A DNA stretch of 64,000 bases from Parasphingopyxis marina (GTDB lineage: Bacteria; Pseudomonadota; Alphaproteobacteria; Sphingomonadales; Sphingomonadaceae), in contig NZ_JACJVJ010000001.1 in assembly GCF_014237875.1 (NCBI RefSeq), positions 1,600,501 through 1,664,500 of the forward strand. The letters are read 5' to 3'. Under the pieces are notes generated by a model that saw only the letters and a program-made list of their open reading frames with translations, was not told where the DNA came from and did no database searches. How positions within the stretch are numbered: position 1 is the first letter of the stretch; every line of letters begins with the position of its first letter. Positions 5,368 through 35,547 of this stretch are shown here, piece by piece. The position numbers and the translations under genes were made by a program.

Positions 5368-5994
5368 ATGACTCATCCCCGTTGCCAGCTCTACCTTATT
5401 TCCCCGCTCGATGTCGGTGGCGATTTCGCCAAACGGCTGGAGCGCGCGCTCGATGCCGGGCCGGTTTCGGCCTTCCAGTTTCGCATCAAGGATATCGACG
5501 AACACGAAGCGGCGCGGCTGGCAGAACCCCTGCAGGCGATCTGCGCGGAGCGCGAGGTAGCCTTCATCGTCAACGATTCGCCGAATCTCGCCAGGCGGCT
5601 GGGCGCGGACGGCGTCCATATCGGCCGGTCGGACGGGAGCATTGCCGAAGCGCGGGCGCTGCTGGGGCCCGGGGTCCAGATTGGCGCGACCTGCCATGAC
5701 AGCCGGCATTTCGCGATGGAGGCCGGTGAGGCGGGGGCCGATTATGTGGCCTTCGGGGCTTTCTATCCGAGCGGCACCAAGGAGACGGTGCACCGGCCGG
5801 ATCCCGATATCCTCACCTGGTGGTCGACCATGTTCGTGCTGCCCTGCGTGGCCATCGGCGGAATCACCGCTGACAATGCCGCGCCGCTGGTTGAGGCGGG
5901 GGCCGATTTCATCGCCGTCAGCGGTGCCGTGTGGAACCATCCCGATGGCGAGGCCGCCGGGGTTCGTGCCTTTGCCGATGTGCTGAACGGCTAG
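5368..5994 (+). CDS. thiE: Thiamine-phosphate synthase
   Basis: Joins hydroxymethylpyrimidine diphosphate and thiazole phosphate to make thiamine phosphate. At 208 aa it has the TIM-barrel length of ThiE. Family landmarks are FQFRIKD (the QxRxK strand), VNDSPNLARRLGADGVHIG, GAFYPSGTKE (the phosphate-binding TK segment) and VAIGGITADN. The usual GQ after GVHxG is GR here. A strong GGGGAGGGG ribosome binding site precedes the ATG. I saw no TPP riboswitch in the short upstream region. It stands apart from other thi genes, as is common in this group. Confidence 0.88.
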   Translation: MTHPRCQLYLISPLDVGGDFAKRLERALDAGPVSAFQFRIKDIDEHEAARLAEPLQAICAEREVAFIVNDSPNLARRLGADGVHIGRSDGSIAEARALLGPGVQIGATCHDSRHFAMEAGEAGADYVAFGAFYPSGTKETVHRPDPDILTWWSTMFVLPCVAIGGITADNAAPLVEAGADFIAVSGAVWNHPDGEAAGVRAFADVLNG

Positions 5995-6003
5995 ACGCTC
6001 CAG

Positions 6004-6198
6004 CTACACTCCCACGTCGTCCTCGCGCCGACCGATCGTGAAGGCGACGGCCTTGCGCATCAGCGACGCGCGATAGCTTTCCGACTGGAGCTCGAAGGGC
6101 TCGTCCTCGATCTTCCGGAGCCGTCCGGGAATGCCTGCCAACCGGCCGAAAAGTCCGGCTGCGCGGGGGGAATTACGCTTACTCGGTATCATCTGCAT
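6004..6198 (-). CDS. Short uncharacterised protein
   Basis: A 64-aa basic protein with no membrane segment and no motif I recognise. AAAGG lies just upstream, closer to optimal spacing for the second Met (6192) than the first (6198), so the product may be 62 aa. It is convergent with thiE and divergent from efp. A GCCTAGT/ACTAGGC inverted repeat sits immediately upstream. It could be a conserved hypothetical of this lineage or a spurious frame, and codon use is compatible with coding. Confidence 0.45.
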   Translation of the reverse strand: MQMIPSKRNSPRAAGLFGRLAGIPGRLRKIEDEPFELQSESYRASLMRKAVAFTIGRREDDVGV

Positions 6199-6205
6199 TA
6201 CCTTT

Positions 6206-6228
6206 GCCTAGTGATCCGAAAACTAGGC
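6206..6228. promoter_or_regulatory. Inverted repeat GCCTAGT-N9-ACTAGGC
   Basis: A perfect 7-bp inverted repeat with a 9-nt spacer lies between the divergent short gene (start 6198) and efp. It is only 7 bp upstream of the short gene and about 110 bp from efp. It could be an operator or a 5' hairpin. Function not known. Confidence 0.35.
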
Positions 6229-6339
6229 GAATCGCGCTTTGCCGTATTGGACGGATACGACAGAAATTTCGGCTGCTTGTGGCGGCGTCCAAGCGCTGGT
6301 AGAGCGCGCGCCTGCTCTTTCTAAACAAGCGAGACACCC

Positions 6340-6903
6340 ATGAAGATCAGCGGCGTGGACATTCGTCCCGGCAATATCATCGAATATGAAGGCGGCCTGT
6401 GGCGCGCCGTGAAGATCCAGCACACCCAGCCCGGCAAGGGCGGCGCCTATATGCAGGTCGAGATGAAGAACCTTATCGACGGCCGCAAGAACAACGTCCG
6501 CTTCCGTTCGGCCGAAACGGTCGAAAAGGTGCGTCTCGACACCCGCGAATACCAGTTCCTGTTCGCCGAGGGCGATATGCTGACCTTTATGGACAAGGAA
6601 AGTTTCGAGCAGATCGAACTTCCCGCCGACATGCTGGGCGATGCCGCGGCCTTCCTGCAGGACGGGATGGACGTGATGCTGGAGCTTTACGAGGAAAAGC
6701 CGATCTCGGTGCAGCTGCCCGACCAGGTGGAGGCCGAGATCGTAGAGGCCGACGCCGTGGTGAAAGGGCAAACCGCTTCATCTTCCTACAAGCCCGCGAT
6801 CCTCGACAATGGCGTGCGCGTCATGGTGCCGCCGCATATCAGCGCGGGCACCCGCATCGTCGTCGACGTTTACGCGCAGGAATATGTGAAGAAGGCCGAA
6901 TAG
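6340..6903 (+). CDS. efp: Elongation factor P
   Basis: Binds ribosomes stalled at polyproline and promotes peptide bond formation. The 187 aa length and three-domain layout (KOW-like domain about 1-65, OB domains about 66-130 and 131-187) are standard. The loop that receives the modification in other bacteria reads QPGKGGAY, with lysine at residue 33, the type of site lysylated by EpmA where that enzyme exists; whether it is modified here cannot be seen. The C-terminal signature segment ending GTRIVVDV is present. The suhB-like gene follows after 31 bp. Confidence 0.96.
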
Positions 6904-27636: not shown

Positions 27637-29931
27637 CTAGCTGCGCAGGCGTTCGATCGCCTGGGCGAGCGACACGTAGAGCTTGCCGTTATCCGACGAC
27701 AGCAAGGTCACCGCGAGCGGCGAGCCGTCGCGCGTCGCGAGCACCCGGCGCAGCATTGATTCGAAATCGTGAATATAGCGGTTCACATGTTCGCGGAATT
27801 CCGAGTTGCTTTCATATTGCGCGGCAATCTCGCGCGCTTCGCCGGTGTCGAGCAACCGGACCGCGCGCCGTGAGAAAACGCCGCGATCGCCCTTCAGATA
27901 GGCCGCCCAGGCCGTATCGGTGACCTCGTTCGAGAGGATCTTGCTGACGTCGATCGCGGTCGAGTTCAGCGATTCGATCAGCAGAGTCACGCGGCGGGCG
28001 AAACCGTCCATGCTCGATGCTTCTGCTTCCGTCTGCGTTTCTTCGAGCCGCGTCTCGATCGCCGTGCTGCGTTCCTCGATCTCGGCCATCTTGGCCTCGA
28101 GTTGATCGGCGGCTTCGCGGGCCGCGGTGATCGCCCGTTCGGAGGCCGTGACGATCTCCGCCATCCGGCCCTCGATATTCTCGCCAAGCGCATCGGACAT
28201 CGCCTGGCGGGTTGCCTCGCTGAGCGCCGAAGCGCTTTGCGGGATCAGCTCGCCAAAGGCGGCGCGCGCCTTTTCGGCGGCCTGGTCGGCCGTCTCGCGT
28301 ACCTGCGCCAAGGTTTCGATCAGGCGCGGCGCCGCGCCTTCGGCAATGCTGTTCGCCTGCTCGGCCGAATTGGCCAGCGCGGTTTCGAACCCGGCGATAT
28401 CCTCGCGCATCGATGAAATCCGGTCGCCGACCTGATCGACGAAATTGGTGATGCCTTCCTTCTGGTCGTCGAGGCTCTCGCCGCTGACGACGACATAGGC
28501 GCGCGTATCGTCGGCCAGCTTCTGGAGCGTTTCGAGTTCGGGCGTAACGCTGCGGATCGCCTCTTTCAGCTGTTCGGTCCGCGATTCGGTGTCGGCAAAG
28601 GCCCGGGGCAGGGTGTCGCTCAGCGAAGAGGCGCTGAGATCGAGCGCCGCCTTCACCTCTGCCGCCCGCGCGATCAGCCGCTCGGTCGCCGCATCGTTGC
28701 CGCCGATGCTTTCGCCAAGCGCCGACATGCCCGCGCGAAGGCCATCGAGTTCCTCACCGAGCTTGCGGGCGTGGCCGGCCCCATTTTCGGAAAGGCCCGC
28801 CAGCCGCCCTTCGATGCCGGTCAGTCCCTTGTCGAGATCGCTGAGAACCGAGGCCGTTGCCCGGCGTTGTTCGCCGAGCTTCGCGTCGAACGCGGTAAGC
28901 GCATCGTTGGTCGCCGCAAGCCGCCCGTCGAGCATCGCTGCGGCTTCCTCGCTCTCGGCGGTGAAGGTCGCGCGCGCGGTTTCGATCATCGCGGAAAGCG
29001 CGGCCCCGATTTCGGCGACGACCTTCCGGGTATCCTCCACGGCATCGCTGGACCGGTTAAGCGCGGCCTCGACGGCAGCGTTTATCTCCTCGCCCTTGGT
29101 GGCGAGCTTGTTCGCGGCGATTTCGGCGACGCCTTCGATCCGGGTGAGATTGGCGGCAAGCGCCCGGGCGGCGCCGCTGGCGATATCGTTGGCTTCCTCG
29201 CCGCGCTCTTTCAGCGATTTAAGCTGGGTATCGAGGGACGCGGCCTGCTCGTGCGCGTTGATCCCGGCTTCCTTGAGGCTGCCGCTTACCGCGCGGGCCT
29301 GCTCTTCGGCGCGTGGAAGATCGGTCATGAGAATCTGGACATTGTCACGCGCGGTCTTCGCGGCACGATCCAGCAGCCCCGATTTTTCCTCGATCGTGGC
29401 GCCGGCGTTGCGCACATCCTCGCCGATCGTTCCCAGTCTGCCCGCCGCTTCCTCGCTGAGCACGAGCAGCCGGTCGGTTTCGGTCGATATGTTTTCGCGG
29501 ATTTCGGATAGCTGGGCGGAAACGATCGCCATCGCCGTGTCCAGCCGACGGGCTTCGGTCCGCATGGCTTCCGCCGTGCGGCCGAAACGGACCGCTTCGC
29601 GGCGGCTGGTGCGCTGGGTCATCAGCCAGAAAATGCCGAGGAGCGCGAGCGGAACCGACGCGATCGCAATCCAGTTGGCGATTTCGGTGAGCGTGGGATT
29701 GCGCGCAACGATGCTTGAATAGGCGGCCCAGCCGACAAATCCCGTCCAGCCCAGCGCCGCCAATACGATCAGGATGACGGGCAGCCGCTCGGCGACACCC
29801 GGCTTTTCAAGCGCGAATGCCCATTCGTCTTCGTCCAGCCATTCGGGGCGCGCGGAGGCCGTTTCGATCTGCTTTCGGGCGGCGTTTCCGCCACTTTCGA
29901 GTTCGGCAATGTCATTTGCGGCTTCGGCCAT
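27637..29931 (-). CDS. Membrane-anchored long coiled-coil protein, possibly TipN-like
   Basis: A 764-aa protein with an N-terminal cytosolic stretch, two membrane helices (about residues 50-71 and 84-105) and then over 500 residues of Ala/Glu/Arg-rich heptad sequence with no catalytic motif. A compact C-terminal region (about 665-764, including AAYLKGDRGVFSRRAVRLLD) looks folded and conserved. This architecture resembles the Caulobacter polarity factor TipN, a bacterial cell-pole marker. I infer the resemblance from layout and not from a search. It is divergent from the Hpt-like gene, about 100 bp away. Confidence 0.7.
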   Translation of the reverse strand: MAEAANDIAELESGGNAARKQIETASARPEWLDEDEWAFALEKPGVAERLPVILIVLAALGWTGFVGWAAYSSIVARNPTLTEIANWIAIASVPLALLGIFWLMTQRTSRREAVRFGRTAEAMRTEARRLDTAMAIVSAQLSEIRENISTETDRLLVLSEEAAGRLGTIGEDVRNAGATIEEKSGLLDRAAKTARDNVQILMTDLPRAEEQARAVSGSLKEAGINAHEQAASLDTQLKSLKERGEEANDIASGAARALAANLTRIEGVAEIAANKLATKGEEINAAVEAALNRSSDAVEDTRKVVAEIGAALSAMIETARATFTAESEEAAAMLDGRLAATNDALTAFDAKLGEQRRATASVLSDLDKGLTGIEGRLAGLSENGAGHARKLGEELDGLRAGMSALGESIGGNDAATERLIARAAEVKAALDLSASSLSDTLPRAFADTESRTEQLKEAIRSVTPELETLQKLADDTRAYVVVSGESLDDQKEGITNFVDQVGDRISSMREDIAGFETALANSAEQANSIAEGAAPRLIETLAQVRETADQAAEKARAAFGELIPQSASALSEATRQAMSDALGENIEGRMAEIVTASERAITAAREAADQLEAKMAEIEERSTAIETRLEETQTEAEASSMDGFARRVTLLIESLNSTAIDVSKILSNEVTDTAWAAYLKGDRGVFSRRAVRLLDTGEAREIAAQYESNSEFREHVNRYIHDFESMLRRVLATRDGSPLAVTLLSSDNGKLYVSLAQAIERLRS

Positions 29932-30030
29932 CGCAAGTCCCTCTCAATTCGCCGTGTTTACCATGTTTTACTCCGCCCGAAAGCCTTGCAAGGCAACGGA
30001 GCGTTAACGGCGATGCCCTAAAGCCACAGC

Positions 30031-30360
30031 ATGGCCTACGATCCGGGTGCATTAGACAAGACTCTCGCGGCTGCGGCGGGCGACGATCCGGCGCTTGTCG
30101 CGGAGTTGCGCCTGGCATTCTTCCGGAGTGCGCAGCGGCACGTATCCTCGCTCCACAACGCCGTGAACGACCAGCAATGGCAGGTTGCGGCCTGGCGGCT
30201 CAAGGGGCTCGCGGCGAGCTTCGGCGCGACCGACCTGATGGCGCTTGCCAGCGAGGCAGCCGAGGGCGTTCCGTTTAGCCGCGAATTGCTCGATCGAATC
30301 GACAAGGCCGTGGCCGGATTCGAAAAGAGCGGCCAATTTGGCGGCGGCGAACTCGGCTAA
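30031..30360 (+). CDS. Hpt-like protein lacking the phospho-histidine
   Basis: A 109-aa helical protein resembling a histidine phosphotransfer domain. The conserved helix reads VAAWRLKGLAASFGA. In active Hpt proteins this is AHxLKG, but the histidine position is Trp55 here (codon 30193-30195), so it cannot accept phosphate in the usual way. The LKG and following small residues are kept. It is divergent from the coiled-coil gene and upstream of genes 30476-34263 on the same strand. A role in binding rather than transfer is an inference. Confidence 0.75.
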   Translation: MAYDPGALDKTLAAAAGDDPALVAELRLAFFRSAQRHVSSLHNAVNDQQWQVAAWRLKGLAASFGATDLMALASEAAEGVPFSRELLDRIDKAVAGFEKSGQFGGGELG

Positions 30361-30475
30361 ATCGCCTTCTATCCCCTAATTTGAGAGAAAATCCCGCTTT
30401 TGAGCGGTGAACGGCTTTGCAACCCGGCGATTGCAGGCGTAACCAAAGTCCCAAAATGGGTACGGGACGCACATA

Positions 30476-31714
30476 ATGGCCTTTGCGGCGCTGATCGCGG
30501 CCTATCAGGAAACCGAGGACAGGGAAGGCGGCCTGCGCGCGCTGTTGCCGATGGCCGGCCGGAGCCTGCTCGAACATCAGGTGCGCCGGGCGATGGCGGC
30601 CGGCGCCAGCCATGCGGTCGTGCTTGTCGAACGGATACCCGCGGCGCTGAACGCGGCGCTGGACCGGTTGCGGCGCGACGGCATAGCGGTAACCCTGGCC
30701 CGAGATCCGATGGATGCGGCCGATCATTTCCACCCCGAAGAACATGTGCTGCTAGTGGCCGATGGGCTCGTCGCGGCGCCCGACTGCTTCGATGCCATGG
30801 CCGCGCGGGCTTCGCCGGCCTTGCTCGTCGTGTCGGACGTGCCGGCCAACGAGCATTTCGAAAGGGTCGATGCCGAAAAGCGCTGGGCAGGCCTCGCCCT
30901 GACCAATGTCGAGACGATCGCGGCAACCGCCCAGATGCTGGGCGATTGGGACCTGCAATCGACATTGATGCGCCGGATCGTGCAGGGCGGGGCGGACTTC
31001 CTGCCGATCGATGGCGAGGCAGGGGTGGTCGCCGAAGCGAGCGAGGCCGTCGTCCTTGCCGAACGCAGCGAAAAGAGCCGCGACGCGGGCAAGGCGATGC
31101 TCTCGCGCAACCGCCTCCACACGATGAGCTGGCCCGAACATTTCCTCTATGGCCGCGGCCTTTCCTTGCTGGCTCCGCTGCTGCTCGATTTCAGGATCGA
31201 GGCGTTCTGGCTGCGCGTCGCGGCGATCCTGCTCTCGCTTCTGGGCGCGGCGGCGCTTTGGTGGGGCTGGCAGTGGACCGGCCTGGTGCTGTTGCTGCTC
31301 GCCGGACCGATCGATGCGACGGCAGGGCGGATCGACCTTGCCCAGCTGCGTAGCCACGATGGGGGTTGGGAGGTTCGGTACGCCAAGGGCCTCGCCCAAG
31401 CCCTGGCGATCCTCGCGCTGGGCCATTTCGCCGCGCGATCGAGCGGGGAAAACGGCTATTTCGTCATGGCGGCTGCCGCGGTGGCGCTGCTGGTCTTCAC
31501 AAGCCGCGAAATGGCGTTGTTCAGGCGAATAGGCCCCGAAAAGCAGCGGCTTTTGCCGTGGATGATAGACGGCAATGCGGCGATCTGGCTCGCCTTGCCC
31601 TTCGCCGCGGCCGGCCAGTGGAACTGGTGGCCGCTCGGGATTGCCGTTTACGCGTCTATCTCCCTGTTTTTGCTCCAGAACAGCATACGCGAGGCGGTTC
31701 GCCAGCGCGATTGA
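30476..31714 (+). CDS. Membrane protein: degenerate nucleotidyltransferase-like plus CDP-alcohol-transferase-like domains
   Basis: A 412-aa two-part protein. Residues 1-200 look like a nucleotidyltransferase fold (ALLPMAGRSLLEHQVRRAM, then LLVADGLVAAP) but the usual GxGxR nucleotide loop is not evident. Residues 228-410 contain about six membrane helices. The stretch GPIDATAGRIDLAQLRSHDG lies where a CDP-alcohol phosphotransferase motif DxxDGxxAR would be, with Ala283 for the second Asp and Asp-Leu for Ala-Arg. The distant family call is tentative. Related fusions make inositol-phosphate lipids, but this copy may be inactive or divergent. The gap to the next gene is 54 bp. Confidence 0.55.
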   Translation: MAFAALIAAYQETEDREGGLRALLPMAGRSLLEHQVRRAMAAGASHAVVLVERIPAALNAALDRLRRDGIAVTLARDPMDAADHFHPEEHVLLVADGLVAAPDCFDAMAARASPALLVVSDVPANEHFERVDAEKRWAGLALTNVETIAATAQMLGDWDLQSTLMRRIVQGGADFLPIDGEAGVVAEASEAVVLAERSEKSRDAGKAMLSRNRLHTMSWPEHFLYGRGLSLLAPLLLDFRIEAFWLRVAAILLSLLGAAALWWGWQWTGLVLLLLAGPIDATAGRIDLAQLRSHDGGWEVRYAKGLAQALAILALGHFAARSSGENGYFVMAAAAVALLVFTSREMALFRRIGPEKQRLLPWMIDGNAAIWLALPFAAAGQWNWWPLGIAVYASISLFLLQNSIREAVRQRD

Positions 31715-31768
31715 CCTTTCGAAACAGGATTAGCATCGTCTTAACGACGTTTCGGCTATGTCCCTTTC

Positions 31769-32890
31769 ATGTCCGAACCGGCCAATTCCCGCCCGGAATC
31801 TGCCGAAGAGCGCGCTGCGGCGTTGCTCGCCGACGCCGCGCGTGCCGCCTATGGGCGGCAGGCACGGGCGACGGTCGCACTCGAGGATTTGCACCGGCCC
31901 GAACGCTACCGCCTCAGCGAGTTTCAGATCCATACCATCCGACAGCTGCTCGACGGACTGATCGATGCCGTCGAAGGGGATTTGCGGGCGCGGCTGCTGG
32001 CGCGCGCCGAACTGCCGGACAATAGCGCTTTCGTAGCGTCGATCGGCGCTGCGCATGTCGCCATTGCCGGCCCGGTGATGCGGCGGGCGGGCTTGCCGGA
32101 CGACGCGGCGCTCGCGACCGTCTTGCTGCGCCGGGCCGACGAATATCGGATCATGCGCCAGCTCCGAAAAGCTGCGTCCGTCACCGAAAATGGCGTATTG
32201 GACCGGCTCATGGACGAGCCCGACAGCGCCATTGCCGCGAGCGCGATGCGTCACCTGATCGCCGAAACCCGGAGCAACGACCGTCTCGACGACCCGCACA
32301 TCGCGCGGGCGGACCTGCCCGCAGAGGTGGACAAGGCGCTGGTCTGGTCGGTGGCCGCGGCGCTGCGCGCCTATGGCGAACGCGAACATGGCATCGAGGG
32401 CGCGGCGCTCGACGCGCCCATCACCGCATCGGCGCGCGAAATGGTCGAGAGCCGGACGGCCGAGGCCGCGCTGGAATCGGCGGCCATGGACCTTGCAGGA
32501 CATCTCGATCGCCACCGGCTGATCGACGATCGGTTGCTCGCGGAAACGCTCGGTGGCGCGCGGTTGGCGCTCTATGCCGCGCTCCTCGGCGAGAAGGCCC
32601 ATCTACCTTTCGGCACGGCCTGGGATATGGCGACCGCGCCGGATGCCGCCGCCCATGCGCTGCTGCTCCGCCATCTCGGTGTCGAACGCGATATGGCCGC
32701 ATTTCTGGCAACCGCGATGGCGCGGGCGGTGATCGGCGACGACCGCGCGGGCGAGGAATGCGCCGCGCGCCGGATCGAGGGCTATGAAGCGATGGATGCC
32801 GAGGCAATCGAGGCCGCGATGCGGCCCTGGCGGCTCGACATCGCCTATCGGACGGCGCTGGCTCGCCTTGACGCCGGAGACCGCGCATGA
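31769..32890 (+). CDS. DUF2336 domain protein
   Basis: A 373-aa, almost wholly alpha-helical soluble protein with repeated Ala/Leu/Arg-rich helices. The overall pattern, including SVTENGVLDRLMDEPDSAIA in the middle and the long C-terminal helices, fits DUF2336, an alphaproteobacterial family often found beside signalling genes. No catalytic residues are known. Its stop overlaps the histidine kinase start by 4 nt (ATGA), so the two products are probably made together and may work together. Confidence 0.8.
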   Translation: MSEPANSRPESAEERAAALLADAARAAYGRQARATVALEDLHRPERYRLSEFQIHTIRQLLDGLIDAVEGDLRARLLARAELPDNSAFVASIGAAHVAIAGPVMRRAGLPDDAALATVLLRRADEYRIMRQLRKAASVTENGVLDRLMDEPDSAIAASAMRHLIAETRSNDRLDDPHIARADLPAEVDKALVWSVAAALRAYGEREHGIEGAALDAPITASAREMVESRTAEAALESAAMDLAGHLDRHRLIDDRLLAETLGGARLALYAALLGEKAHLPFGTAWDMATAPDAAAHALLLRHLGVERDMAAFLATAMARAVIGDDRAGEECAARRIEGYEAMDAEAIEAAMRPWRLDIAYRTALARLDAGDRA

Positions 32891-34263
32891 GCGGCGCGGC
32901 GGCGATGGACGGTACCGCCTTTGGCCGGCTCGACCGGGAAGGACGGCTGGTTTCGGCGGATGCCGCGCTCGCCGATCTCAACGCGCGCGCGGGTGGCGTG
33001 ACCGGCGGCGCGCTCGCCATTCCCCAGATCGCGGCGCTGGCGCGGCTTGCCCAGCGTCTCGGCATTCATGTTTCGCGCTCGGTGATTGCGGCCGATGGCG
33101 AACGCGACCTCGAACTGCGCGTCCAGGCCGAACCGGATAGCGACGGCGTCAGTCTCGCCGTCGGTGGCTGGGTCGGAAGAGACGCTTCACCACCTGCGTC
33201 TGGCGCGCGCGCGATGCGCGATCACGATTTTCAGCGTGCGGCGGCCGACTGGCTTTGGGAAACCGATCAGGCGCTGCGGCTGACCTCGCTCTCGCCCGAC
33301 GCTGTCGCCGCGATCGGGGCGATCGAGCCTTTTGTCGGCCAGCCGCTGACGGGCCTGTTCCGCTTTGTGGAAAGCGGAGACGGTGGCCTGCCGATCCTCA
33401 ACGCGCTCGCCGAACATCGCCGGTTCGAGGACCAGGCGGCGGTGGTACGGGTCGAGGGCGGATTGACCGTGACCCTGACCGGCGTCCCGTTGATCGACGG
33501 CAATGGCCGTTTTGCCGGTTTTCGCGGTACCGCCGAAATGCGGGAAGAAGCGCCGGCCGCGCCGCCTCCGTCCGCCGATGAGAATATCGGCGTGCCCGAT
33601 GCGTTCGGACGACAGCTCGACAGGGCGCTGCGCGAGCCGCTCGACAAGATCGTGGCCGGCGCGCACAGCATCGAAGCGCAACTCGATGGGCCGATCCGCA
33701 CCGATTATGCCGAATATGCGGGCGATATTGCCCGGGCCGGCCAGCATCTGCTGGCGCTGATCGACGATCTTGTCGATCTCCAGGCTGTGGAACGCGACGA
33801 TTTCGTCGCCGAGGTGCAGGCGCTCGATCTGGCCGATGTTGCGCGCAGCGCGGCCGGGCTGCTTTCGGTCCGCGCCAGCGAAAAACGGATCAAGATCGAT
33901 ATGCCGGCCGACGATGAAACGCTTCCCGCGCTTGGCGACTATAAGCGCGTGCTCCAGATCCTCGTCAATCTGGTCGGCAATGCGGTTCGCTATGCGCCGG
34001 AGGAAAGCCAGGTCTGGATACGCTGCGAAGGCGAGGGCGATCTTGCCGCCGTCGTCGTTGCCGATCAGGGGCGCGGCATCGCGCCGGAGGACCAGCCCCG
34101 CATGTTCGAAAAGTTCGAACGGCTTTCGGCGAGCGAACCCGGTACCGGCCTCGGCCTCTATATCGCCCGCCACCTCGCGCGCGCGATGGGCGGCGATATC
34201 GACGTCGACAGCGCGCCGGGGCAGGGCGCCCGTTTCGTGCTGACTCTTCCGGCTGGAAGCTAG
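32887..34263 (+). CDS. PAS-containing histidine kinase-like protein without the acceptor histidine
   Basis: A 458-aa soluble sensor-kinase homologue. Residues 115-225 look like a PAS domain, 238-300 a HisKA dimerisation domain, and 345-458 a HATPase_c domain. The ATPase motifs are complete: LVGNAVRYAPEE (N box), ADQGRGIAPED (G1), MFEKFERL (F box) and GTGLGLYIARHLARAMGG (G2). The H box reads QLDRALREPLDKIV. Aligned with SHELRTPLN, Arg246 (codon 33622-33624) replaces the histidine. A comparable replacement exists in Caulobacter DivL, where tyrosine sits there. No membrane segment. It is translationally coupled to the DUF2336 gene. Confidence 0.88.
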   Translation: MSGAAAMDGTAFGRLDREGRLVSADAALADLNARAGGVTGGALAIPQIAALARLAQRLGIHVSRSVIAADGERDLELRVQAEPDSDGVSLAVGGWVGRDASPPASGARAMRDHDFQRAAADWLWETDQALRLTSLSPDAVAAIGAIEPFVGQPLTGLFRFVESGDGGLPILNALAEHRRFEDQAAVVRVEGGLTVTLTGVPLIDGNGRFAGFRGTAEMREEAPAAPPPSADENIGVPDAFGRQLDRALREPLDKIVAGAHSIEAQLDGPIRTDYAEYAGDIARAGQHLLALIDDLVDLQAVERDDFVAEVQALDLADVARSAAGLLSVRASEKRIKIDMPADDETLPALGDYKRVLQILVNLVGNAVRYAPEESQVWIRCEGEGDLAAVVVADQGRGIAPEDQPRMFEKFERLSASEPGTGLGLYIARHLARAMGGDIDVDSAPGQGARFVLTLPAGS

Positions 34264-34266
34264 CCT

Positions 34267-35547
34267 CTAGCGGCTCCCGAGCGGGACATAGTCCCGCATT
34301 GTCGGGCCCGTATAAAGCTGGCGCGGACGACCGATACGCTGTTCGGGATCCGAAATCATCTCGTTCCACTGGGCGACCCAGCCGACCGTTCGCGCGAGCG
34401 CGAACAGCGCCGTAAACATCGTCGTCGGGAAGCCGATCGCCGAGAGGATGACGCCCGAATAGAAATCGACATTCGGGTAGAGTTTTTTCTCGATGAAATA
34501 TTCGTCGTTGAGCGCGATCTGCTCGAGCTCACGGGCGACATCGAAGATCGGATCGTCGACGCCGAGCGTTTCGAGCACCTCGGCGGCGGTTTCCTTCATC
34601 ACCTTCGCGCGCGGATCGAAATTCTTGTAGACCCGGTGGCCGAAGCCCATCAGGCGGAACGGGTCCTCCTTGTCCTTGGCGCGAGCGATATATTCGGGAA
34701 TCTTGTCCGGTGTGCCGATCTCGTGCAGCATGTTGAGCGCCGCTTCGTTGGCGCCGCCATGCGCCGGGCCCCACAGACAGGCGATGCCGGCCGCGATGCA
34801 GGCGAACGGATTGGCGCCCGAGGATCCGGCAAGCCGCACGGTCGAGGTCGAGGCGTTCTGCTCATGGTCGGCATGGAGGATGAAAATCCGGTCCATCGCC
34901 TTTTCGACGACCGGATTGACTTCATAGGGCTCGGCCGGAACGCCAAAGGTCATCCGCAGGAAATTTCCCGTGTAGGAGATCGAGTTTTCCGGATAGAGGA
35001 ATGGCTGCCCGATCGAATATTTATAGGCCATCGCCGCGATCGTCGGCATCTTCGCGATCAAGCGGTGCGAGGCGATCTTGCGCTGCACGGGATCGGTGAT
35101 GTCGGTCGAATCATGGTAGAAGGCGCTGAGCGCGCCGACGACGCCGCACATGATCGCCATCGGATGGGCGTCGCGGCGGAATCCGTTATACAGCGTTTTG
35201 AGCTGCTCGTGCACCATGGTGTGGCGCGTGATCGTATATTGGAAATCATCGAATTCGCCGGGGCTGGGCAGTTCGCCGTTGAGCAGCAGATAGGCGACTT
35301 CCATGAAGCTCGACTGTTCGGCGAGCTGGTCGATCGGATAGCCGCGATGGAGCAGGATGCCCTCGCCGCCGTCGATGAACGTCAGGCCGGATTCGCAACT
35401 CGCCGTCGAGGTAAAGCCAGGATCGAAAGTGAACATACCCGTCTGTGCGTATAGCTTGCGGATATCGACCACTTCGGGCCCTACACTGCCTTTGACCACC
35501 GGATATTGCTGATCTCCGATGGCCATTTCCCCGGCTTTGTCGCTCAT
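34267..35547 (-). CDS. gltA: Citrate synthase
   Basis: Condenses oxaloacetate and acetyl-CoA to citrate, entering the TCA cycle. At 426 aa it is the hexameric Gram-negative type. Active-site histidines are in the [11 protein letters not shown] and [13 protein letters not shown] segments, and the catalytic Asp lies in [25 protein letters not shown] lies 8 nt before the ATG. It follows gltX by only 30 bp on the same strand, so the two may share a transcript. It is convergent with the kinase-like gene. Confidence 0.97.

Follow-up and report, generated by a model that had tools for sequence, protein, structure and literature searches.

Introduction

Single pseudokinases such as DivL of Caulobacter are known. 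The accessible part of one report (PMC4211667) describes DivL as a pseudo-kinase whose catalytic region has been repurposed to sense DivK~P and which has little intrinsic kinase activity, consistent with structural and nucleotide-binding data. In the Rhodobacterales, according to the accessible part of a second report (PMC9430884), the receiver-like protein Osp, which lacks key residues, inhibits CckA, and the kinase part of DivL degenerated after DivK was lost. Here we analyse a 64,000-nucleotide stretch of the Parasphingopyxis marina genome (contig NZ_JACJVJ010000001.1; hereafter the window) with a locus at which one and the same lineage has lost the phospho-residues of both a histidine kinase (E) and a histidine phosphotransfer (Hpt) protein, while strong selection on the two proteins persists. 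The same cluster encodes a long coiled-coil protein (A_CC), a membrane protein (C) and a DUF2336 protein (D). All five open reading frames (ORFs) are present at the coordinates given in the original prediction, which was made from the letters of the stretch and treated the genes as parts of one system. Our search of mainly open-access papers returned nothing on this locus.

Like DivL, E contains PAS domains, keeps the DHp and ATP-binding (CA) fold and has its acceptor histidine replaced. The acceptor of DivL is Tyr, whereas that of E is Arg in the window and is not Tyr in any of 55 genomes of the family. The ATP boxes are strictly kept in E, in contrast to the little activity of DivL, and E is coupled to DUF2336 and is not membrane-anchored, unlike DivL. 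In our kinase tree, which contains no DivL sequence, the nearest rows to E are DUF2336-coupled kinases. The Rhodobacterales system differs in that its kinase domain is degenerated or truncated, whereas that of E is kept and constrained, and in that Osp keeps its Asp, whereas at this locus an Hpt has lost its His too. We consider it probable that the locus is a phosphorelay that was stripped of its phosphate chemistry and survives as a module for protein interaction, comparable to DivL.

Results

Both acceptor histidines are lost in one family

Relatives came from the GTDB family of the window genome (f1), which also holds Sphingomonas and which we take to be the Sphingomonadaceae, from other families of the same order (f2-f8) and from the wider class. 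G and L numbers denote genomes and fetched loci, respectively (Sphingomonas sp. Leaf21, for example, is G163 and L074), and g1 and g49 are the genera Parasphingopyxis, that of the window genome, and Sphingomonas. Loci were mapped by tblastn detection of the genes in 48 loci from 42 relatives. Acceptor positions were scored by profile alignment over the fetched loci with one row per genome, and the rows, chosen by E-value and by the loci available, are non-random. Dropped from the kinase counts were G055, whose kinase has no DUF2336 gene before it, the remote loci L077-L102 and matches that end before the acceptor.

The original prediction named Arg246 of E and Trp55 of the Hpt as residues standing in for the phospho-histidines, and direct inspection bore out both. 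The HisKA match of E starts at residue 248, just past the acceptor, and at 15.6 bits (E-value 0.017) it stays below the Pfam cut-off of 26.9, next to an HATPase_c match of 103.9 bits (8e-30). Trp55 aligns with the His of canonical Hpts, and the protein is barely over its own Pfam cut-off (PF01627; 25.0 versus 24.6 bits).

Across 55 f1 genomes, 45 from the sample and 10 named records outside it, the acceptor of E is a residue other than His in 52 (R 24, P 17, Q 4, D 2, and K, N, T, S and E one each). The three remaining genomes are G087 and G021, which have the canonical SHELRTPL motif, and G033, in which His lies within a broken motif (DHSFKPS). Outside f1 in the same order, we examined 22 genomes that have a DUF2336 gene; the kinase behind it could be scored in 20 of them (f2 and f4-f8) and carries His in all 20, whereas in G037 and G047 the contig ends before the acceptor. 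At class level, the kinase acceptor was in view at 10 of 28 DUF2336 loci (L205-L232) and was His in all ten. The Hpt acceptor is not His in 50 of 52 f1 genomes (L 16, W 13, M 8, Q 6, E 2, A 2, and T, S and R one each), and G087 and G014 retain His. In 20 genomes outside f1 (f4-f7, including G051 and G056) an Hpt divergent from A_CC was found, every one with His. Most of the sample outside f1 comes from f5, which supplied 11 of the 20 kinases and 13 of the 20 Hpts. No Hpt was found in 6 of the 20 regions fetched outside f1 (L253, itself only a 433-base stub, L266-L269 and L272) or in L237, L239 and L241, and none was seen in f8.

Both positions could be scored in 38 f1 genomes, of which 37 lack both histidines and one, G087, has both; both are present in all 14 genomes of other families scored in this way. 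Sequencing error, which the original prediction considered a poor explanation, is rejected because the loss is common to independent genomes. Within the genus, the refutation test proposed with the original prediction (close relatives with both histidines, or no linkage) favoured that prediction.

The kinase tree (85 rows, with the acceptor column retained) was obtained by a quick search with SH-aLRT support only; five of its end branches are long, and the outgroup rows, among them the additional L077 and L078, do not lie on one side of a single branch. In this tree the canonical kinases are outside, followed by G087, then G021, and then all non-His rows including the broken G033. The acceptor state changes twice, compared with a mean of 26.6 for shuffled states. 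From this order and the two changes, the loss of His is most simply read as derived, near the base of f1. The loss first noticed in the window is lineage-wide in f1. It has to be added that every scored relative from other families has kept His, as has one early branch of f1, which makes the loss secondary. On this reading the two linked proteins have undergone a real, conserved and secondary loss of relay chemistry.

The histidine-less proteins remain under selection

We estimated dN/dS from nine genome pairs; several dS values exceed 1, which makes the ratios rough. They were low for all five genes: 0.03-0.13 for the Hpt (5 pairs), 0.05-0.20 for E (9 pairs), 0.06-0.24 for C (8 pairs), 0.07-0.19 for A_CC (5 pairs) and 0.10-0.33 for D (9 pairs), the fastest of the five. 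Among 29 aligned kinases, N361, N365, D393, G395, G419, G421 and G423 of E are invariant, and the acceptor and the next Glu vary. When 22 His rows were compared with 52 non-His rows, with G033 in neither set despite being counted above among the His-bearing f1 genomes, most of the DHp core was common to both. Four DHp positions and one CA position are fixed to different letters in the two sets, and another eight (two in DHp and six in the CA domain) are fixed in the non-His rows only. Although shared ancestry explains part of this pattern, the low dN/dS together with the newly fixed residues argues for new constraint rather than decay.

That the genes are remnants heading for loss would fit C, which has no catalytic motif and a mean column identity of only 32%, and D, which evolves fastest and was detected by tblastn in just 24 of 42 genomes. 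We rejected such decay, which we regard as extremely improbable, on the basis of the low dN/dS of all five genes, frames that stay open across many genera, recurring gene order and the newly fixed residues; for the Hpt and the kinase it is contradicted outright. It is also very unlikely that E phosphorylates another residue or protein. An unusual acceptor of this type would be in keeping with the strictly kept ATP boxes and with one DHp histidine, H287, that is identical in 29 of 29 kinase rows, but H287 is just as invariant in 22 of 22 canonical rows, which marks it as an old structural residue. Moreover, nine different residues occupy the acceptor position in E, led by Arg (24/52) and Pro (17/52), and nine do so in the Hpt as well. 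A replacement acceptor histidine in the Hpt was rejected, since in no alignment column does His exceed 8 of 22 rows. That selection still keeps the His-less kinase and Hpt suggests that these proteins now signal by shape and binding rather than by phosphate.

The kinase retains its fold

In the predicted model of E (mean pLDDT 86), two PAS-like domains precede a two-helix DHp, which is followed by the CA domain; the pTM is just 0.48, which leaves the arrangement of the domains unsure. Pfam PAS models match the canonical relatives but not E of the window, and a Kyte-Doolittle scan found no transmembrane segment in E. At E <= 0.001 the model matches 532 structures. DivL (4q20) is at rank 49, with a TM score of 0.71 by target and a sequence E-value of 2e-15.

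In a specific version of our preferred reading, the DHp of E would dock a phosphorylated receiver of another pathway, such as DivK~P, and report the state of that receiver to a genuine kinase, for instance CckA. The repurposed catalytic region of DivL provides the precedent, and the structural match and the large share of the DHp core common to His and non-His rows are consistent with it. Set against these are the Tyr acceptor of DivL, where E has R, P, Q, K, N, D, T, S or E, the missing transmembrane segment, the disappearance of the old neighbouring receiver and the four DHp positions that changed letters with the loss of His; this version is possible, though hardly probable.

RetS damps GacS, and NifL works through ADP/ATP and its PAS domain. 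E could behave similarly, either binding a real histidine kinase through its DHp and damping it or acting through ADP/ATP and PAS. The CA domain, intact and conserved despite the loss of the acceptor, would suit this role; the NifL-NifA complex (9qq6) is the second structural match of the model, and RetS (6dk7) is among the sequence matches. As 532 structures match, the NifL and RetS hits carry little weight, and we regard a heterodimer or inhibitor of this kind as rather unlikely.

The cluster combines two older loci

Among the 42 mapped genomes, A_CC was detected in 33, E together with the citrate synthase gene gltA in 38, A_CC, Hpt and E within one fetched stretch in 25, and all five genes in 12. 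The misses include cases of contig ends, diverged D and true separation. The 4-nt overlap of D and E reported originally is real; it is exactly 4 nt at 7 of the 14 loci measured, and elsewhere the ORF start, chosen by script, differs.

Outside f1 the two halves form separate loci. At the first, A_CC faces the Hpt (f4-f7), and behind the Hpt lies a receiver protein that mostly carries an FGPDRRR tail. This receiver was found in 27 genomes including G087 (for example L236:6994-7602, L238:11288-11836 and L242:3198-3746). At E <= 1e-20 its family is present in 21 of 24 f2-f8 genomes (the match in G047 being weak), whereas of 36 f1 genomes only G016 has it, as a partial match; G087, outside that 36-genome sample, has the receiver beside its His-bearing Hpt. 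Where an Hpt was found, an Asn in place of the receiver phospho-Asp coexists with His in the adjoining Hpt, and the pseudo-receiver seems older than the pseudokinase.

At the second locus, the DUF2336-kinase pair lies at most ~3 kb downstream of flgL in 17 of 22 genomes and also in G087. flgK precedes flgL where the flank is long enough, and one or two genes separate flgL from the pair in L244, L245 and L248. In the early f1 branch G087 the receiver, the flagellar neighbours and the two histidines are all still present. In 15 further f1 genomes, for which the flank mostly extended only 1.5 kb, flgL was never near the pair. The FlgK and FlgL probes of G087 found nothing at 32 class-level DUF2336 loci (L205-L232 and L298-L301), where flanks are mostly short and the probes may be too distant; this result does not support a class-wide flagellar link. 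Pfam scans of 13 neighbours revealed no receiver beside a canonical DUF2336-kinase pair. The clearest ancestral link found is to the flagellar hook genes, and judging from these neighbourhoods the ancestral relay was probably flagellum-linked. In L248 an EAL-domain gene lies further upstream, and in G087 a receiver-like ORF (1.3e-4, a weak match) and a further kinase lie 2.2 kb downstream of the pair (L243:11496-13599).

FlgK is present in 22 of 24 f2-f8 genomes and in 15 of 36 f1 genomes, and it was found in none of ten Parasphingopyxis genomes, five of which are 99-100% complete. The FlgK frame is 443-487 aa in 11 of the 15 FlgK-bearing f1 genomes, compared with 667-797 aa for the main form in f2-f8; four f1 genomes have 549-654 aa, and G015 and G030 additionally have a FlgK of ~700 aa. 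These absences and short forms, read together with the gene neighbourhood, suggest that f1 lost or replaced the ancestral flagellum and that the kinase survived it.

By these comparisons, the cluster is a merger of two older loci. The view of the five genes as one linked system holds in most relatives in which the whole locus is visible, but needs the qualification that two loci have merged and are still apart in several f1 genera.

Discussion

A non-phosphorelay module, as originally proposed, is the likeliest present state, to which the secondary loss and the merger have to be added. The comparison shows that relatives outside the family have a DUF2336-coupled PAS histidine kinase of the canonical type and, at another place, an equally canonical Hpt with a receiver beside A_CC. 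f1 has lost the receiver and both histidines, and in many of its genera the two halves have become neighbours, together with a decayed NTP/CDP-transferase. Purifying selection on the proteins has continued since, with new residues fixed in DHp and CA and the ATP site intact. In our preferred reading, E would today still bind ATP, read a small signal through its PAS domains as well as ATP/ADP, and change shape without transferring phosphate. Its DUF2336 partner D may hold E, E may dock on A_CC or on receivers or kinases of other pathways, and the Hpt-fold protein may serve as a further docking part. Most speculatively, the module might act at the cell pole or the division site.

A more detailed history can be put forward only tentatively. 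A phosphorelay that served the ancestral polar flagellum would have been stripped stepwise (receiver Asp to Asn, receiver loss, and loss of the kinase and Hpt histidines), and after the flagellum was lost or replaced the kinase, Hpt and DUF2336 protein would have been jointly recruited to a polar protein resembling TipN, there forming a scaffold that senses through ATP and PAS.

Several observations weigh against a stripped relay that forms one module. The receiver phospho-Asp is Asn in 24 of 27 genomes (SNW or TNW for SDW) and Asp in only three, all of f8. Since most relatives with both histidines intact already have Asn there, the receiver may not have been the phosphate acceptor of the relay. 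Similarly, the C homologue of G087 is already degenerate although that genome keeps both histidines. G021 keeps the kinase His without a receiver and with no Hpt found in its genome, and G014 keeps the Hpt His with no C, DUF2336 or kinase gene in the 13 kb fetched around it; these two genomes show that the losses did not happen at the same time. G033 carries a His at the aligned kinase position in spite of its broken motif. The joint loss is also essentially one event on the tree, and its correlation carries little statistical weight. Finally, the A_CC part and the C-D-E part are far apart in 6 of 9 Sphingomonas genomes (G060, G078, G081, G090, G096 and G175; together in G073, G156 and G163), and A_CC is apart from C or E in six genomes of genus g52 (G069, G113, G121, G130, G149 and G152), in G020 and in G171.

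Living intermediates (G087, G021 and G014) and intact outgroups make it possible, by comparing canonical with derived proteins, to ask what role is left to a two-component protein without phosphate transfer. DUF2336 gains a testable context as the partner of a kinase, with a flagellar neighbour, and as the neighbour of a coiled-coil protein widespread in the class.

Coiled-coil protein, DUF2336 protein and polarity

TipN has two N-terminal membrane segments followed by a long coiled coil. A_CC shares this arrangement with the Caulobacter protein, with two N-terminal transmembrane segments (aa 48-71 and 83-106) and a long putative coiled coil, a likeness of layout; A_CC matches no NCBIfam TipN model, and its profile matches are weak and of coiled-coil type only. 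Its best-conserved part is the C-terminal ~125 aa (75% mean column identity in 20 rows), which no Pfam family covers in the window protein. We found this domain in 133 of the 147 genomes from the order and in 53 of the 142 from the class, where the open frames that contain it reach ~2500 aa.

DUF2336-type genes recur near A_CC in other genomes. At one locus a true SpbR gene (L235:3731-4843; 461 bits, cut-off 400) is convergent with A_CC (L235:4897-8058), ~50 bases away. D of the window belongs to the same Pfam family as SpbR of Caulobacter (DUF2336, PF10098; 50.7 bits, cut-off 34.6) but scores just 29.2 bits against the SpbR model (NF052659, cut-off 400) and represents a different, kinase-coupled branch. 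The predicted model of D is all-alpha (mean pLDDT 87) and has no match in the PDB at E <= 0.001, making its fold uninformative; no paper under the name DUF2336 appeared in the open-access literature search. The SpbR-type neighbours and the TipN-like layout are only suggestive, but they make the proposed tie to polarity or the cell cycle plausible.

gltA adjoins or lies near E in most f1 loci, and in 17 further loci tested it was found in L249 only, an f1 genome. The accessible part of one report (PMC7083601) states that the Caulobacter citrate synthase CitA controls the cell cycle independently of its enzyme activity, and its strain list includes tipN deletions. The position of gltA next to E may be a coincidence, as housekeeping neighbours mean little.

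Locus map and protein C

The features are listed in Table 1. A promoter scan of the locus found no sigma-70-like site, and terminator-like sites were fewer than in shuffled sequences, which is uninformative.

Table 1. Features of the locus, in window coordinates.
Feature	Position	Strand	Basis
A_CC, long membrane-anchored coiled-coil protein, 764 aa	27637..29931	-	ORF
A_CC, conserved C-terminal domain, ~125 aa	27640..28014	-	alignment
A_CC, second transmembrane segment, aa 83-106	29614..29685	-	Kyte-Doolittle
A_CC, first transmembrane segment, aa 48-71	29719..29790	-	Kyte-Doolittle
Hpt-fold protein without phospho-His	30031..30360	+	Pfam Hpt and alignment
Trp55 codon, phospho-His position of the Hpt	30193..30195	+	aligns with His of canonical Hpts
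C, degenerate NTP-transferase/CDP-alcohol phosphotransferase-like membrane protein	30476..31714	+	ORF, Pfam, alignment
Remnant of CDP-OH motif in C, DATAGR, aa 280-285	31313..31330	+	compared with DGVDGKLAR in G026 and G054
D, DUF2336 protein	31769..32890	+	Pfam, 50.7 bits
E, PAS-PAS pseudo-histidine kinase	32887..34263	+	start overlaps D by 4 nt
E, two PAS-like domains, aa 11-99 and 107-218	32917..33540	+	strands and helices of predicted model
E, DHp helical hairpin, aa 239-302	33601..33792	+	predicted model
Arg246 codon, phospho-His position of E	33622..33624	+	alignment
E, ATP-binding (CA) domain, N, G1 and G2 boxes kept	33817..34254	+	HATPase_c, 8e-30
gltA, citrate synthase, convergent neighbour, no claimed member of the module	34267..35547	-	Pfam

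The description of C as a membrane fusion without most catalytic residues was right in outline, and Ala283 was verified directly. C has the two-part architecture of bifunctional NTP-transferase/CDP-alcohol phosphotransferase-like proteins but lacks their DG..AR motif and Pfam match. Its N-terminal half gives a weak MobA-like NTP transferase match (0.0022, 18.6 bits, cut-off 27), and CDP-OH_P_transf (PF01066) matches neither C of the window nor L105. Two homologues, in G026 of f1 (41 bits) and in G054 (35 bits), match this family, and both have DGVDGKLAR. Among 38 aligned relatives of C, the DG..AR motif occurs in L124 (G026) only; a search with strict spacing matched no C homologue, G026 and G054 included.

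The gene beside the C homologue of G054 presumably encodes an inositol-phosphate synthase. In L326 we take 183-1319 to be an inositol-phosphate-synthase-like gene and 5516-6373 to be a second CDP-alcohol transferase, with a large gene between them that we assume to be transporter-like. A motif-bearing C homologue with a CDP-OH match (L326:1476-2828) lies in this gene group, which is a possible candidate for an inositol lipid cluster.

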